From Jiella pelagia (lineage in GTDB: Bacteria; Pseudomonadota; Alphaproteobacteria; Rhizobiales; Rhizobiaceae): a DNA stretch of 64,000 bases. The DNA lies in the NCBI RefSeq assembly GCF_026898155.1, contig NZ_CP114029.1:1557501-1621500 (forward strand), in the 5' to 3' direction. Under the pieces are notes generated by a model. It was not told the origin of the DNA, searched no databases, and worked only from the letters and a program-made list of their open reading frames with translations. The number at the start of each line of letters is the position of its first letter. The stretch's first letter is position 1. Position numbers and translations under genes: made by a program. This document shows positions 17,562 through 24,792 of this stretch, one piece after another.

Positions 17562-18257
17562 TCAGACCGTGAGATGCTTGCGCACCTCGAGGTCGTCGAG
17601 GCCTTCCGCCGGCCCGTCGAAGACGATCTCGCCGCGGTCCATGACATAGACCTTGTCGGCGAGTTCGCGGCAGAAATCGAGATATTGCTCGACGAGAAGG
17701 ATGGCGATGCCGGAATTGTCCTTCAGGAAGCGGATCGCCCGGCCGATGTCCTTGATGATCGAGGGCTGGATGCCCTCGGTGGGTTCGTCCAGCACCAGGA
17801 GCCGCGGCCGGGTGACGAGTGCCCGGCCGATCGCCAGCTGCTGTTGCTGGCCGCCGGAGAGATCGCCGCCGCGGCGCGTCAGCATGCCCTTCAAAACGGG
17901 AAAAAGCTCGAAAACGTGATCGGGGATGGAGCGCTCCGAGGCCTTCAGCGGCGCATAGCCGGTCTGGAGGTTCTCCTTCACCGTCAACAGCGGGAAGATC
18001 TCCCGGCCCTGCGGCACGAAGCCGATGCCGCGCCGGGCGCGGTTATACGGCGCCTCGCGGCCCATCACCTCGCCCTCGAAGGCGATCTCGCCGCGGCGGA
18101 TCGGCTGCTGGCCGACGACGGCACGCAGGAGCGACGTCTTGCCGACGCCGTTGCGCCCGAGGACGCAGGTGATCTCGCCGCTCTTGGCCGAGAGAGAGAC
18201 GTTCCGCAGCGCCTGAGCGGCGCCGTAGTAGAGATCGACGTTGGAGACGGTCAGCAT
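17562..18257 (-). CDS. urtE: Urea ABC transporter ATPase UrtE
   Basis: 231 residues, LivF-type ABC ATPase: Walker A GRNGVGKTS, signature LSGGQQQQLAIGRAL, Walker B LLVLDEPTEGIQPS. EGIQPSIIKDIGRAI is characteristic of UrtE. It pairs with UrtD to power high-affinity urea uptake through UrtB/UrtC. It is the last gene of the cluster, separated from urtD by about 350 bases of repeat-rich DNA, so its expression may partly uncouple from the rest. Confidence 0.93.
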   Translation of the reverse strand: MLTVSNVDLYYGAAQALRNVSLSAKSGEITCVLGRNGVGKTSLLRAVVGQQPIRRGEIAFEGEVMGREAPYNRARRGIGFVPQGREIFPLLTVKENLQTGYAPLKASERSIPDHVFELFPVLKGMLTRRGGDLSGGQQQQLAIGRALVTRPRLLVLDEPTEGIQPSIIKDIGRAIRFLKDNSGIAILLVEQYLDFCRELADKVYVMDRGEIVFDGPAEGLDDLEVRKHLTV

Positions 18258-18609: not shown

Positions 18610-19641
18610 TCATCGCCCCAGATACACCTCGATCACCTTCGGATCGGCCGACACCTTGTCGAGCGTTCCCTCCGACAGCACCGAGCCCTCGTGCAGGCAG
18701 GTGACCTTGACCCCGAGGGCGCGGACGAAATGCATGTCGTGCTCGACGACGACGACCGAGCGGGTCGCGGCGATTTCGCGCAGGAGCCGGGCGGTCTCCT
18801 CGGTCTCGGCGTCGGTCATGCCGGCGACGGGCTCGTCGACGAGGAGGAGTTCGGGATCCTGGGCGAGCAGCATGCCGATTTCGAGCCATTGTTTCTGGCC
18901 GTGCGAGAGATTGGCGGCGAAGATCTGGCGCTTGTCGGTCAGCCGCGTCGTCTCGAGGATCGCCTCGACGCGCTGGCGTTCGGCCTCGTCCTTGCGATGG
19001 ACGAGCGCTTCCAGGACGGAGCGCGGCCCCGACAGGGACAGGCGGATGTTGTCCTCCACCGTGTGGCTCTCGAAGACGGTCGGCTTCTGGAACTTGCGGC
19101 CGATGCCCATGGAAGCGATGGCCGCCTCGTCGTGACGGGTCAGGTCGACGTCGCCCGAGAAATAGACCTCGCCCTTGTCCGGCCGGGTCTTGCCGGTGAT
19201 GATGTCCATCATCGTCGTCTTGCCGGCTCCGTTCGGGCCGATGATCGCCCGCATCTCGCCCTTCTCGATCACCAGCGAGAGGTTGTTGATCGCCTTGAAG
19301 CCGTCGAAGCTCTTGGTGACGCCGTTGAGATAAAGCAGCGTGTCGCGCCGGGCCCGACCCTGTGCCTCGATCGCCAGCCGCCGCTCGCGCATCTGGGCGG
19401 CGTAGGGATGCGGCGAGACGACGGGCTCGCCATGGCCGTTCTCCAGCGTCCGGTCGACCGGAGCCTGTGAAGCGGACAAGGCCTCGCGCGGCATCGCCGG
19501 CTGCGCCGCGACGGCAGCGATGCCTGCACCGCCGATACCCTGCAGCACAGTCGGGGTTGCCGGTTCGCCACCGCTTCCCTGCGGCGTCGTCAGCGCGTGC
19601 ACGTCGTCGGCCACCTTGCCTGCCACTTTTGTCTCGACCAT
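18610..19641 (-). CDS. urtD: Urea ABC transporter ATPase UrtD with N-terminal extension
   Basis: 343 residues; the LivG-type ABC domain starts only near residue 101 (TLLYLNGVTKSFDGFKAINN), with Walker A GPNGAGKTT, signature LSHGQKQWLEIGMLL and Walker B LLLVDEPVAGMT. LSHGQKQWLEIGM is diagnostic for UrtD. Typical UrtD proteins are about 250 residues, so the first 100 residues, low-complexity and rich in Ala, Pro and Gly, are an extension or a mis-chosen start; Met84 (MRERRLAIEAQ) is a plausible shorter start. Confidence 0.92.
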   Translation of the reverse strand: MVETKVAGKVADDVHALTTPQGSGGEPATPTVLQGIGGAGIAAVAAQPAMPREALSASQAPVDRTLENGHGEPVVSPHPYAAQMRERRLAIEAQGRARRDTLLYLNGVTKSFDGFKAINNLSLVIEKGEMRAIIGPNGAGKTTMMDIITGKTRPDKGEVYFSGDVDLTRHDEAAIASMGIGRKFQKPTVFESHTVEDNIRLSLSGPRSVLEALVHRKDEAERQRVEAILETTRLTDKRQIFAANLSHGQKQWLEIGMLLAQDPELLLVDEPVAGMTDAETEETARLLREIAATRSVVVVEHDMHFVRALGVKVTCLHEGSVLSEGTLDKVSADPKVIEVYLGR

Positions 19642-19647
19642 TCTCGT

Positions 19648-20805
19648 CTACTCCGCCGGATCTGGGACGACGTCCGTCCCAGCCGTCTCGCCCTTTTCGG
19701 CTTCCTTCGCCCGGCGGGTCGCCCTCAAGGCGTCCCAGCCGTGGTCGATGGTGCCGACGATGCCGCGCGGCAGGAGCAGCGTGACGAAGACGAACAGGCC
19801 GCCCAAGAGGAACAGCCAGAATTCCGGCGCCAGCGCCGTGAAGACGGTCTTGCCGTAATTGACCAGCAGCGCCCCGATAACCGGGCCGATCAGCGTGCCC
19901 CGGCCGCCGACCGCCGCCCAGACGACGATCTCGATGGAATTGACCGGCGAGAACTCGCCCGGATTGATGATGCCGACCTGCGGCACGTAGAGCGCCCCGG
20001 CGATCCCCGCCATGACGGCGGAGACGGTGAAGGCGAAGAGCTTTACGTATTCCGGGCGCCAGCCGATGAAGCGGGTGCGGCTTTCGGCGTCGCGCACCGC
20101 GATCATCAGCTTGCCGAGCTTGGAGCGGGTGATCCAGCCGACGAGCAGCACCCCGAGCGCCAGGGCAATGCAGCTCGCGGCAAAGAGGCCGGCTCTCGTC
20201 GCATCCGCCTGGATGGAAAAGCCGAGGATGTCCTTGAAGTCGGTGAGGCCGTTGTTGCCGCCGAAGCCCATGTCGTTCCTGAAGAAGGCGAGAAGCAGCG
20301 CATAGGTCATCGCCTGGGTGATGATCGACAGATAGACGCCGGTGACCCTCGACCGGAAGGCAAAGAAGCCGAAGACGAAGGCGAGCAGCCCCGGAACCAG
20401 CATCACCATGAGCGCGGCGAACCAGAACTGATCGAAGCCGGTCCAGTACCAGGGGAGTTCCTTCCAGTTGAGGAACACCATGAAGTCCGGCAGCTCGGGA
20501 TTGCCGTAGACGCCGCGGGCGCCGATCTGGCGCATCAGATACATGCCCATGGCATAGCCGCCGAGGGCGAAGAAGGCGCCGTGTCCGAGCGACAGGATGC
20601 CGCAATAGCCCCAGACGAGATCGAGCGCGAGAGCGAGCAGGGCGTAGCAGACATATTTGCCGAACAGCGGCACGAGATAGGACGGCACATGCAGCGGATG
20701 GTCCGCCGGCAGCGCGAGGTTCGACAGCGGTACGAGGATCGCGGCGGCCAGGATCGCGGCGATGAGGATCCAGACGCGGGGGCCGAGGAAGCGAGCGAGG
20801 ATCAT
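19648..20805 (-). CDS. urtC: Urea ABC transporter permease UrtC
   Basis: 385 residues, LivM-type permease with about ten hydrophobic segments. DLVWGYCGILSLGHGAFFALGGYAMGMYLMR and GGNNGLTDFKDILGF are UrtC signatures. With UrtB it forms the urea channel in the inner membrane. The ATG overlaps the urtB stop as ATGA, showing translational coupling. The C terminus is a charged tail. Confidence 0.93.
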   Translation of the reverse strand: MILARFLGPRVWILIAAILAAAILVPLSNLALPADHPLHVPSYLVPLFGKYVCYALLALALDLVWGYCGILSLGHGAFFALGGYAMGMYLMRQIGARGVYGNPELPDFMVFLNWKELPWYWTGFDQFWFAALMVMLVPGLLAFVFGFFAFRSRVTGVYLSIITQAMTYALLLAFFRNDMGFGGNNGLTDFKDILGFSIQADATRAGLFAASCIALALGVLLVGWITRSKLGKLMIAVRDAESRTRFIGWRPEYVKLFAFTVSAVMAGIAGALYVPQVGIINPGEFSPVNSIEIVVWAAVGGRGTLIGPVIGALLVNYGKTVFTALAPEFWLFLLGGLFVFVTLLLPRGIVGTIDHGWDALRATRRAKEAEKGETAGTDVVPDPAE

Positions 20806-22430
20806 GCGTCGACGAACCTCCCCTTCTGGGCGAAGAGGCCGCGGGGGCGCTTCTGGATGAACAGGATGATGAGGACGAGGACGACGATCTTGCCGAGGAC
20901 GGCCCCGGCATAAGGCTCGAGGAACTTGTTGACGATGCCGAGTGTCATCGCCCCGACCAGCGTGCCCCAGAGATTGCCAACCCCGCCGAAGACGACGACC
21001 ATGAATGAGTCGATGATGTAGCCTTGGCCGAGATTGGGCGAGACGTTGTCGATCTGGCTGAGCGCAACGCCGGCGATGCCGGCGATGCCCGAACCCAAGG
21101 CAAACGTCATGGCGTCGACCCATGGCGTGCGGATGCCCATCGCCGCCGCCATCCGGCGGTTCTGGGTGACGGCGCGCATCTGCAGGCCGAGCGGCGTCCT
21201 GTTGAGGACCGCGAGCAGCGCCAGGAAGACGACCAGCGCGAAGACGATGATCCACAGCCGGTTCCAGGTCACCGACATCAGCCCGACGTCGAAGGCCCCG
21301 GACATCCAGTCGGGATTGCCGACCTGCCGGTTCGAGGGCCCGAAGATGGTGCGCACCGCCTGCTGCAGGATCAGCGAGACGCCGAAGGTCGCCAGCAGCG
21401 TCTCCAGCGGTCGGCCGTAGAGGAAGCGGATCAGCCCGCGCTCCATCACGAGGCCGACGGTGCCCGATACCAGGAAGGCCAGCGGCAGGGCGATCGTCAG
21501 GGACCATTCGAACAGGCCGGGCGCGTTGTTGCGGATCAACTCCTGCACCATGAAGGTCGTGTAGGCGCCGAGCATCACCATCTCGCCATGGGCCATGTTG
21601 ATGACCCCCATGACGCCGAAGGTGATGGCCAGCCCGATCGCCGCCAGGAGCAGCACCGAGCCGAGCGACAGGCCGTACCAGATGTTCTGCGTCTGGTTCC
21701 AGAAGGCGATGTTGTTCTGGATGGCGACGATGGCCGCGTCGGCCGCCTGCTTGGCCACCGGATCGTCGGTGGCGCCGGCAAAGCGGATGAGCATCGTCAG
21801 GGATTCCCGGTCGGCCCGCGTCGCCAGGACCTTCGCCGCCGCCGCCTTGTCGGCAGCCGGGAGATCGGAGGCGAGAACCGCGCTGGCGCGCGCTTCCTGC
21901 ATGCGCGCCTTGACCGCAGAATCCTCCTCGGCCGCGATCGCCGCATCGAGCGGCCCGATCATCTCGGGATCGGCATCGGAGAAGAGAGTGCTTGCGGCGC
22001 GCATCCGCTGGGCGGGATTTTCGGCTCTCAGCGTCAGGGTGCCGAGGGCACCCGTCACGGCGTTGCGGATCGAGTTCTTGACCCGAACCTTCTGGAGATC
22101 GCCGCTCGGCACGGTGCCGGCGCTGTCCCCGGTCAGCGGATCGAAGATCTCGTAATCGCTTCCCTTGCGGGTGGCGATGAAGACCGCCTCGTCGCCCTCG
22201 CGCCAGTAGAGATCGCCCTCGCGCAGCGCCCGCAGCGCCCTTGCGACGCGCTCGTCACCGGTGGCGGCGAGTTCGGCAATGACAGCCTCGGTGGCGTCGA
22301 AGCTCTGCTTGCCGCCGAACTTCTGGACGATGGCGGCGGGATCGGCCTCGGCCTGCTGCGCCGCCGCCGGGCCAAGACCGAACAGCAGCACGGCAAGGCT
22401 CAGCAACAGCCAGGGAATCGATCGGTTCAT
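20802..22430 (-). CDS. urtB: Urea ABC transporter permease UrtB
   Basis: 542 residues: a signal-like N terminus (LLLSLAVLLFGLGPAAAQQ), an alpha-helical extracytoplasmic domain of about 200 residues typical of UrtB, and a LivH-type permease domain from about residue 250 (YGLSLGSVLLLAAIGLAITFGVMGVINMAHGE). GAYTTFMVQELIR and MRAVTQNRRMAAAMGIRT are family signatures. Second gene of the cluster, after a 255-base gap from urtA. Confidence 0.93.
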   Translation of the reverse strand: MNRSIPWLLLSLAVLLFGLGPAAAQQAEADPAAIVQKFGGKQSFDATEAVIAELAATGDERVARALRALREGDLYWREGDEAVFIATRKGSDYEIFDPLTGDSAGTVPSGDLQKVRVKNSIRNAVTGALGTLTLRAENPAQRMRAASTLFSDADPEMIGPLDAAIAAEEDSAVKARMQEARASAVLASDLPAADKAAAAKVLATRADRESLTMLIRFAGATDDPVAKQAADAAIVAIQNNIAFWNQTQNIWYGLSLGSVLLLAAIGLAITFGVMGVINMAHGEMVMLGAYTTFMVQELIRNNAPGLFEWSLTIALPLAFLVSGTVGLVMERGLIRFLYGRPLETLLATFGVSLILQQAVRTIFGPSNRQVGNPDWMSGAFDVGLMSVTWNRLWIIVFALVVFLALLAVLNRTPLGLQMRAVTQNRRMAAAMGIRTPWVDAMTFALGSGIAGIAGVALSQIDNVSPNLGQGYIIDSFMVVVFGGVGNLWGTLVGAMTLGIVNKFLEPYAGAVLGKIVVLVLIILFIQKRPRGLFAQKGRFVDA

Positions 22431-22618: not shown

Positions 22619-22685
22619 AGTGCCGGAGCACGATCCGTGCCGAGAGACCGGTGCCAGAGCCTCTCGGGATCGCGCTCGCGGCGCA

Positions 22686-23990
22686 TCAGTTGGACGCCGT
22701 TTCGCCGAGGCACTTCTTCGCCTCGGTGTCGTAGTTGCCGCATTTCAGCTCGACCCAGTCGGCCGTCAGCTTCTTGGATTCCGGCAGGAAGTCGGACCAG
22801 GCGTCGCCCGGGACGAGGTCTTCGGTCTCGGAGACGACGTCGAACTGGCCTTCGTCGTTGATCTCGCCGATCAGCACCGGCTTGGTGATGTGATGGTTCG
22901 GCAGCATCTTCGACATGCCGCCCGTGAGATTGGCCTGCTCGATGCCCGGCAGGGCGTCGATGACGGCGTCGGCATCGGTGGTACCGGCCTTCTCGACCGC
23001 CTTCACCCACATGTTGAAGCCGATGTAGTGGGCTTCCATCGGGTCGTTGGTGACGCGCTCGTCATTGCCGATGAAGGCGTGCCACTTGGCGATGAAGTCG
23101 GCGTTCTCCGGCGTGTCGACGGACTGGAAGTAGTTCCAGGCGGCGAGATGGCCGACCAGCGGCGCGGTGTCGATGCCGGCGAGTTCTTCCTCGCCGACCG
23201 AGAAGGCGACGACCGGGATATCGGTTGCGGCGACGCCCTGATTGGCGAGTTCCTTGTAGAACGGCACGTTGGCGTCGCCGTTGACGGTGGAGACGACCGC
23301 GGTCTTCTTGCCGGCCGAGCCGAACTCCTTGATGCGCGAGACTTCCGTCTGCCAGTCGGAGAAGCCGAAGGGCGTGTAGTTGACGATGATGTCTTCCGCC
23401 GCGACGCCCTTGTCCTTCAGATACTGCTCGAGGACCTTGTTGGTGGTGCGCGGATAGACGTAGTCGGTGCCTTCGAGCACCCAGCGCTCGACGCCCTCGT
23501 TCATCAGATAGTCGACGGCCGGGATGGCCTGCTGGTTCGGAGCGGCGCCGGTGTAGAAAACGTTGCGCTCGGATTCCTCGCCCTCGTACTGGACGGGATA
23601 GAAGAGGATCGAGTTCAGCTCCTTGAAGACCGGCAGCACCGACTTGCGCGACACCGATGTCCAGCAGCCGAAGACCGCGGCGACCTCGTTCTGGCTGATC
23701 AGCTCACGCGCCTTTTCGGCAAAGAGCGGCCAGTCGGACGCGGGGTCGACGACGACCGCTTCCAGAGGCCGGCCAAGCACGCCGCCCTTCTTGTTCTGCT
23801 CGTCGATGAGCATCAGCATGGCGTCCTTGAGGGTCGTCTCGGAGATCGCCATCGTGCCGGAGAGCGAATGGAGGATACCGACCTTGATCGGCTCGCCGCT
23901 CGGCGTCTGGGCGTAGCTTCCGGAGACGCCGAACGCGGCGATCGCCGCGGCAGCGGCCGTCTTCTGCATCCATCTCTTGGCTGATTTCAT
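22686..23990 (-). CDS. urtA: Urea ABC transporter substrate-binding protein UrtA
   Basis: 434 residues with a signal peptide (MKSAKRWMQKTAAAAAIAAF..., cut after SYAQ near residue 28) and a type I periplasmic binding fold. FGCWTSVSRKSVLPVFKELNSILFYPVQYEGEE is the UrtA/FmdD-class signature that separates urea and short-amide binding proteins from LivJ. GGAGG lies nine bases before the ATG. It is the first gene of the urt cluster and is preceded by a consensus sigma-54 promoter 54 bases upstream, implying nitrogen control. Confidence 0.93.
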   Translation of the reverse strand: MKSAKRWMQKTAAAAAIAAFGVSGSYAQTPSGEPIKVGILHSLSGTMAISETTLKDAMLMLIDEQNKKGGVLGRPLEAVVVDPASDWPLFAEKARELISQNEVAAVFGCWTSVSRKSVLPVFKELNSILFYPVQYEGEESERNVFYTGAAPNQQAIPAVDYLMNEGVERWVLEGTDYVYPRTTNKVLEQYLKDKGVAAEDIIVNYTPFGFSDWQTEVSRIKEFGSAGKKTAVVSTVNGDANVPFYKELANQGVAATDIPVVAFSVGEEELAGIDTAPLVGHLAAWNYFQSVDTPENADFIAKWHAFIGNDERVTNDPMEAHYIGFNMWVKAVEKAGTTDADAVIDALPGIEQANLTGGMSKMLPNHHITKPVLIGEINDEGQFDVVSETEDLVPGDAWSDFLPESKKLTADWVELKCGNYDTEAKKCLGETASN

Positions 23991-24043
23991 GTCGTGACCT
24001 CCAGTCGAGCAAGGGCCGTTCGCCGGCCTCGATGAAGGCAGTC

Positions 24044-24059
24044 AGCAAAGCCCGTGCCA
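24044..24059 (-). promoter_or_regulatory. Sigma-54 (RpoN) promoter of urtA
   Basis: On the minus strand the sequence reads TGGCACGGGCTTTGCT: the -24 element TGGCACG and the -12 element TTGCT with the correct four-base gap, matching the RpoN consensus at every defining position. The predicted transcription start is about 24033, leaving a 5' leader of some 40 bases with a GGAGG ribosome site before urtA. An NtrC enhancer would be expected upstream (24100-24250); I could not identify a clear one. Confidence 0.88.
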
Positions 24060-24279
24060 GAATTGACTTGGGGGAAGATCGACGCGGCAAATCCGCTGCG
24101 GCCGCGGCTTCTGCGCGGATAAGGTTGCAGCCCAGCCTGTCCCGGCCGCTACACGGCCGCCCGCATCATGGGCAGCATGAACAGAATTTATGCAACGAGG
24201 GCGGATCTGCTGCAAAGCGCATCGAGCCGGGCTCCAATGGCGCTGTCTCACCGCCCAGCCGTGCGTGCGTCCAGGCCGA

Positions 24280-24792
24280 TCAGTCCTGCGGCGTGATCAC
24301 CGTCAGGGTGATCCACTCGGCCGTGAGGGCCGGCTTCGCCGCTCCCTCGATCTCCACCGCCGCGTCCCATGTCGTCTGCAGGCTGACGGCCCGTTCGTTG
24401 AGGCCGATCATCCTGAACCGGCCGCGCACTCGCGTCCCCGCCTTCACCGGATTCAGAAAGCGGATCTTGTCGAAGCCGTAGTTCATGCCCATCCGCATGC
24501 CCCGAACGCCGGGGATCGCCTCATAGGCGAGGGTCGAGAGCAGCGAGAGCGTCAGGAAGCCGTGGGCGATGGTCCCGCCGAAGGGCGTTTCGGCCCGGGC
24601 GCGGTCGGGATCGACATGAATGAACTGATGGTCATGGGTGGCGACGGCAAACCGGTCGATCATAGTCTGGTCGACGGCAAGCCAGGGCGAAAGCAGCGGC
24701 TCGCCCTCCAACAGCGCCCGATAGTCCGCCAGCGGCACCATCCGCTCGGCGATGAGCGCTTCCGTTTCGGCCACCGAATTCAGCGCCATCAT
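24280..24792 (-). CDS. MaoC-like (R)-hydratase
   Basis: 170 residues, single hotdog domain with the hydratase 2 motif: DRFAVATHDHQFIHVDPDRA followed by FGGTIAHGFLTLSLLS, which holds the catalytic Asp/His pair. By family it hydrates trans-2-enoyl-CoA or a related enoyl thioester. Its start overlaps the SDR stop (ATGA), so the two enzymes are made together and probably act in the same acyl-CoA pathway, with divergent TetR control. Confidence 0.85.
   Translation of the reverse strand: MMALNSVAETEALIAERMVPLADYRALLEGEPLLSPWLAVDQTMIDRFAVATHDHQFIHVDPDRARAETPFGGTIAHGFLTLSLLSTLAYEAIPGVRGMRMGMNYGFDKIRFLNPVKAGTRVRGRFRMIGLNERAVSLQTTWDAAVEIEGAAKPALTAEWITLTVITPQD

Follow-up and report, generated by a model that had tools for sequence, protein, structure and literature searches.

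The DNA before the urea transporter genes of Jiella pelagia raises the question of which signal switches on urea uptake in this alphaproteobacterium, and through which regulatory sites. We considered the 64,000-nucleotide stretch of DNA analysed here (the window, 64 kb in full), the remainder of the genome, and urt loci of related bacteria. The DNA before the urt genes has the appearance of a true promoter of the nitrogen-starvation (sigma-54/NtrC) type, and we regard it as very probable that the operon is controlled by a promoter of this nitrogen-limitation type.

The transporter genes lie together on the minus strand, and all five predicted subunits, UrtA to UrtE, scored above their NCBIfam cut-offs:

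22686..23990, minus strand: urtA, urea ABC transporter substrate-binding protein, 434 aa (TIGR03407, 549 bits, cut-off 493)
20802..22430, minus strand: urtB, permease (TIGR03409, 437 bits, cut-off 250)
19648..20697, minus strand: urtC, permease (TIGR03408, 442 bits, cut-off 296)
18610..19338, minus strand: urtD, ATPase (TIGR03411, 380 bits, cut-off 304)
17562..18257, minus strand: urtE, ATPase (TIGR03410, 339 bits, cut-off 286)

The coordinates given for urtC begin where the family match begins and end at the stop codon, and those for urtD begin near the start of the match and likewise end at the stop; the open frames extend back to 21507 and 19641, respectively. By UrtA, the nearest named relative among the matches listed is Aurantimonas sp. 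22II-16-19i, with 91% identity. A urease alpha gene is present on the same contig, approximately 2.3 Mb from urt.

Upstream of urtA, the following features were annotated:

24044..24059, minus strand: sigma-54 (-24/-12) promoter element TGGCACGGGCTTTGCT, from sequence match and position conserved in relatives
24033, minus strand: predicted transcription start, placed 12 bases downstream of the -12 C (24045)
23998..24002, minus strand: urtA ribosome-binding site GGAGG, from sequence

The element TGGCACGGGCTTTGCT reads 5' to 3' on the minus strand from 24059 to 24044, and its 3' end is 53 bases before the urtA start codon (ATG at 23990). The -24 GG (24058/24057) and the -12 GC (24046/24045) are separated by 10 bases, in a TGGCACG-N4-TTGCW context. 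An earlier note on this DNA had described TGGCACG-N4-TTGCT on the coding strand about 40 bases before the urtA ribosome site, matching the RpoN consensus at key positions. Both statements were confirmed: the gap between the element and GGAGG is 41 bases with the right GG/GC geometry, and the TGGCACGGGCTTTGCT site is the sole exact match to the consensus TGGCACGNNNNTTGCW in the window. With up to two mismatches, TGGCACGNNNNTTGCW matched six places in the window, compared with 7.4 expected. Scored with an approximate sigma-54 weight matrix, the urtA element reached 20.1 of a possible 21.0, compared with 11.3 for the runner-up place in the window. A weak sigma-54-like match, CGGCACGGATCGTGCT (22627-22642, minus strand, 11.3 bits), is also found between urtA and urtB, inside a gap of 255 bases, and may be a chance match.

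The urtA match could itself be a product of chance, with urtA transcribed from another promoter. Genome-wide counts are in keeping with this idea, as the consensus had three exact matches in the whole genome, and with at most one mismatch it had 25, compared with 61 for a backwards control pattern. The sigma-54 consensus is therefore not enriched across the genome, and a match by itself is no proof of function. Because the bare pattern was hardly above chance, we compared 110 urtA loci, comprising the best 80 of at least 596 contig matches and 30 of 43 matches from 61 family genomes (urtA was matched in 42 of the 61). This set includes the Jiella pelagia locus and some duplicates, and represents 106 different UrtA proteins.

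Sigma-54 sites were far more frequent before urtA than in control DNA. Within the 400 nt searched, 74 of the 110 upstream regions contained a site of at least 12 bits and 42 contained one of at least 18 bits. Among 2184 control windows of genomic DNA, each 260 nt long and searched on one strand, 0.8% reached the lower threshold and none the higher one. When a looser rule was added (at least 10 bits, 40-130 bases before the start), sites were found in 79 loci and absent from 31, and 69 of these 79 sites begin 50-80 bases before the start codon. Letter counts over the chosen sites are partly circular, but the clustering of their positions is not. Both the sequence of the element and its place before urtA are conserved in more than twenty named genera, mostly among Hyphomicrobiales. 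In this comparison of sequences, it is conservation, and not the consensus match, that exceeds chance for the urtA element. Given this conservation, and since a simple scan of 23900-24400 found no sigma-70-like promoter or terminator, we consider a chance match very improbable. Extending the search up to 1500 nt in the 36 loci below 12 bits yielded no site of at least 12 bits except in L038 and L110; these two loci, which have identical UrtA proteins and lack a near site, carry a 15.3-bit sigma-54-like match 925 bases upstream of urtA.

Other consensus matches in the Jiella pelagia genome occurred in several settings. The exact match at C1:4703361-4703376 (L003) is followed, 37 bases downstream, by a 330-aa open frame with a TTG start and ABC-ATPase-like first residues, and no frame of 100 aa begins within 260 bases of the exact match at C1:3707658-3707673 (L002). 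Matches with one mismatch were located upstream of a P-II gene (C1:5566453-5566468, gene match from 5566530) and upstream of amtB (C1:3400518-3400533, gene match from 3400770), which, as expected, fit a nitrogen regulon.

The earlier note had reported no clear NtrC box for the activator. We first tried TGCACC-N5-GGTGCA, the plain NtrC consensus of enteric bacteria, and rejected it as the box: the mean best match before urtA was 8.03 of 12 positions compared with 7.84 in shuffles, and 8 of 12 compared with 8.2 for Jiella pelagia. Since the enteric consensus was not enriched, we instead searched de novo for a palindrome in at most 260 bases of DNA preceding the sigma-54 element in 67 of the 74 regions (near-copies left out). 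This yielded the palindrome TGCYYAAAWTTTRRGCA, with a log-likelihood of 341. Six shuffles that preserved dinucleotides reached 56-68; each shuffle had 25 random starts, compared with 60 for the real regions. The matrix trained on these regions reached at least 12 bits in 67 of the 74 sigma-54 loci and in 0.1% of 2184 control windows (260 nt); the former count includes the training loci, so the held-out P-II test described below weighs more. Two boxes were placed in Jiella pelagia:

24178..24194, minus strand: NtrC-type palindromic box TGCATAAATTCTGTTCA, best match in the window with both urtA- and P-II-trained matrices
24158..24174, minus strand: tentative, weaker second palindromic box TGCCCATGATGCGGGCG (6.8 bits urtA-trained, 8.7 bits P-II-trained)

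With the urtA-trained matrix, TGCATAAATTCTGTTCA ranked first in the window at 16.8 bits (next 9.3), and leaving out its own genus from training gave an agreeing score of 15.9 bits. Its centre is at approximately -153 from the predicted start. The centre of TGCCCATGATGCGGGCG is 20 bases away, and this box tied for third in the window with the P-II-trained matrix. The absence of an NtrC-type box is thus not borne out, as 24178-24194 lies inside 24080-24279, the stretch that the earlier note proposed to search with an NtrC position matrix. We consider it probable that the DNA shortly before the sigma-54 element contains the activator site that was missed earlier.

The same palindrome was recovered independently of urtA. 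A matrix built from 53 P-II gene regions (Jiella pelagia excluded) converged on the palindrome of the urtA regions, with a log-likelihood of 277.7, compared with 26-34 in three mononucleotide shuffles (fewer starts). With this P-II-trained matrix, 66 of 74 urtA regions exceeded the 99% level set by 2228 control windows, and 24178-24194 ranked first in the window with 15.6 bits (next 10.5). In the reverse direction (400 nt searched), the P-II gene linked to amtB was found in 24 of 30 amtB loci; of these 24, 19 had a match of at least 12 bits to the urtA-trained matrix before that gene, and 23 had a sigma-54 site there. For the other P-II gene, presumably glnB, the corresponding numbers were 20 and 28 of the 30 best-scoring loci. 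P-II promoters in the family therefore resemble the urtA promoter in carrying a sigma-54 element and the same palindromic box, but they differ in spacing: beside amtB, boxes beginning 104 and 133 bases ahead of the sigma-54 element are frequent. The single P-II region checked in Jiella pelagia (L168) had a best palindrome score of 7.5, and that of a genus mate (L158) 5.8, so this positive control is weak within its own genus.

The sharing of the box with P-II genes bears on which activator would bind it. Several sigma-54 activators besides NtrC are encoded in the genome (matches at 5574764, 3702172, 4363772/4364076, 5171709/5171911, and 4952667/4952558, the last three frame-split), and two of them (L011, L012) also have GAFTGA in an open frame. 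Additionally, the palindrome departs from the enteric NtrC consensus inside its half-sites. These observations would suit a sigma-54 promoter that is activated by NtrX or another enhancer-binding protein instead of NtrC. On the other side, the same palindrome stands before amtB-linked P-II genes, and amtB and glnBK are described as core NtrC targets in the excerpted text of a comparative regulon study, which also gives urtABCDEF of Rhizobiales to NtrC (PMC5343134). We therefore consider a different activator unlikely and retain NtrC as the protein expected at the box.

Genes for both NtrC and RpoN are present in the genome. The ntrC product is full length and contains GAFTGA, and rpoN (L009, C1:3166182) includes its RpoN box, but the assembly splits rpoN between two frames. 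Three sigma-54 activator genes are likewise frame-split (C1:5171298-5172642, C1:4363367-4364831, and C1:4952378-4953486), one of which adjoins ntrC and is presumably ntrX. A match to rpoN was found in 56 of 61 family genomes, Jiella pelagia included, and in the other 55 it is in frame over at least 451 aa. Because activator genes are split as well and rpoN occupies one long frame in 55 relatives, indels from assembly or sequencing are likelier than a dead rpoN, and we regard sequencing indels as the likely cause of the frame break. Completeness of this genome was scored at only 85%.

The promoter type is already known for urt genes, and Jiella pelagia is a further case. In Bradyrhizobium sp. 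DOA9, the excerpted text lists a promoter, TGGCATGGTTCTTGC, at -77 before urtA-B-C and reports urtA-D as strongly down in rpoN mutants (PMC13207237). The listed site precedes the same gene in another genus; NtrC is named once in the main text of that paper, and the excerpted text gives no NtrC box for urtA. The comparative genomics of PMC5343134, in its excerpted part, extends NtrC regulation of urtABCDEF beyond Rhizobiales to other orders; its likeness to our case lies in the assignment of the same genes. In Burkholderia cenocepacia H111, an ntrC mutant had lower expression of urea transporter and urease genes and was unable to use urea, according to the excerpted text (PMC5491218). This species is a betaproteobacterium, and the locus numbers given there for urt and urease are adjacent, unlike the distant arrangement in Jiella pelagia. 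For alpha- and betaproteobacteria, PMC12316311 describes urease genes under the control of sigma-54, in an excerpt in which urt is not named.

The sequences themselves, their conservation, and the palindrome common to P-II gene regions are direct observations, and established knowledge suggests how they might work together. RNA polymerase with sigma-54 (RpoN) would bind the -24/-12 element and wait there as a closed complex. When nitrogen is limiting, NtrC in its phosphorylated form would bind the palindromic box at 24178-24194, and perhaps the one at 24158-24174 too. Bound NtrC would then loop to the polymerase, and its GAFTGA-bearing AAA+ domain would open the promoter. The urtABCDE products would be made, presumably from one transcript of the five genes, and would bring in urea for the urease, whose gene lies at a distant site in the genome. 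The proposal that urea uptake depends on NtrC and RpoN is thus supported by the conserved site, the box, the ntrC and rpoN genes, and dependence measured in other organisms; for Jiella pelagia itself, the dependence is a prediction.

Loci lacking a sigma-54 site suggest that urt genes may be controlled in a second way. In 20 of the 110 loci, no sigma-54 site was present and a conserved motif, TACGT-N6-ACGTA, occurred within 250 bases before urtA, taking the place of the sigma-54 site of other loci (L025, L030, L036, L044, L051, L053, L059, L065, L067, L071, L073, L078, L090, L107, L112, L118, L120, L122, L126, and L127, with L120 and L126 deviating from the pattern). The motif was first noticed in 14 Rhizobium-type loci; the pattern derived from these then found L025, L030, L051, L078, L090, and L107, and L126 was included by means of a relaxed version. 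No locus contained both the motif and a sigma-54 site, and 11 of 110 contained neither.

The motif was accompanied by a kinase gene. Upstream sequence of 3.6 kb or more was available for 72 loci; among these, a hybrid histidine kinase was matched in all 13 motif loci, compared with none of 53 sigma-54 loci and none of six others. The kinase has 1126 aa in L053 and 13-14 hydrophobic segments in three examples, and its gene precedes urtA in divergent orientation, approximately 1.9 kb away in L071 and 3.6 kb in L036. A LuxR-type response regulator follows the kinase in L053 and was matched in 12 loci. In size and arrangement (hydrophobic segments, hybrid kinase, LuxR-type partner), the kinase is similar to the SLC5/STAC family (CrbS, RpuS). 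We did not assign it to that family, as its N-terminal half had no Pfam match of note, and the motif letters in the excerpted text of PMC5715377 differ from TACGT-N6-ACGTA. The excerpted text of PMC9100948 contained no occurrence of urea, urt, or ACGTA, and no published report of a kinase-urt link was apparent from titles and abstract openings.

This arrangement, in which a hybrid kinase and a LuxR-type regulator are dedicated to urt as in Rhizobium and Sinorhizobium loci, could in principle apply to Jiella pelagia too, given that 20 of 110 related loci have it, as judged by the motif. We consider this extremely improbable. TACGT-N6-ACGTA is absent from the 400 bases before Jiella pelagia urtA, and the genome has one kinase match only (E at most 1e-40), confined to residues 655-908 with 37% identity. 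The sigma-54/NtrC promoter remains our reading for this operon.

Among relatives, the distribution of the motif suggests repeated changes of control. All seven motif-type genomes among the 30 family loci have rpoN, so what changed is the DNA before urtA; the sigma factor was not lost. The motif requires seven changes on the UrtA tree, at least six of them forced by well-supported branches, and a single clade for motif loci was rejected (p-AU 4.6e-10, quick tree). Swaps apparently also occurred within Devosia and within the Aureimonas group. An independent-pairs test of exclusivity gave a median p of 0.0625 and is weak, owing to the few (nine) supported pairs. We lean slightly toward the view that alphaproteobacterial urt genes are wired in two mutually exclusive ways that have replaced each other repeatedly, either sigma-54/NtrC or the hybrid kinase and LuxR-type regulator with TACGT-N6-ACGTA. 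The kinase route would perhaps sense urea or a related solute. Our reading is that urt control has been swapped repeatedly, some loci answering to global nitrogen status and others to a dedicated sensor, with the regulator acting at the motif being putative.

For this urt operon, the palindrome provides a candidate answer to the question of the enhancer, and it supplies a matrix with which NtrC-type boxes of the family can be scored. If the two-way wiring is true, it would be a natural experiment in which a global nitrogen regulator has been exchanged for a pathway-specific one, and it would become testable why some soil- and plant-associated bacteria remove urea uptake from nitrogen control.
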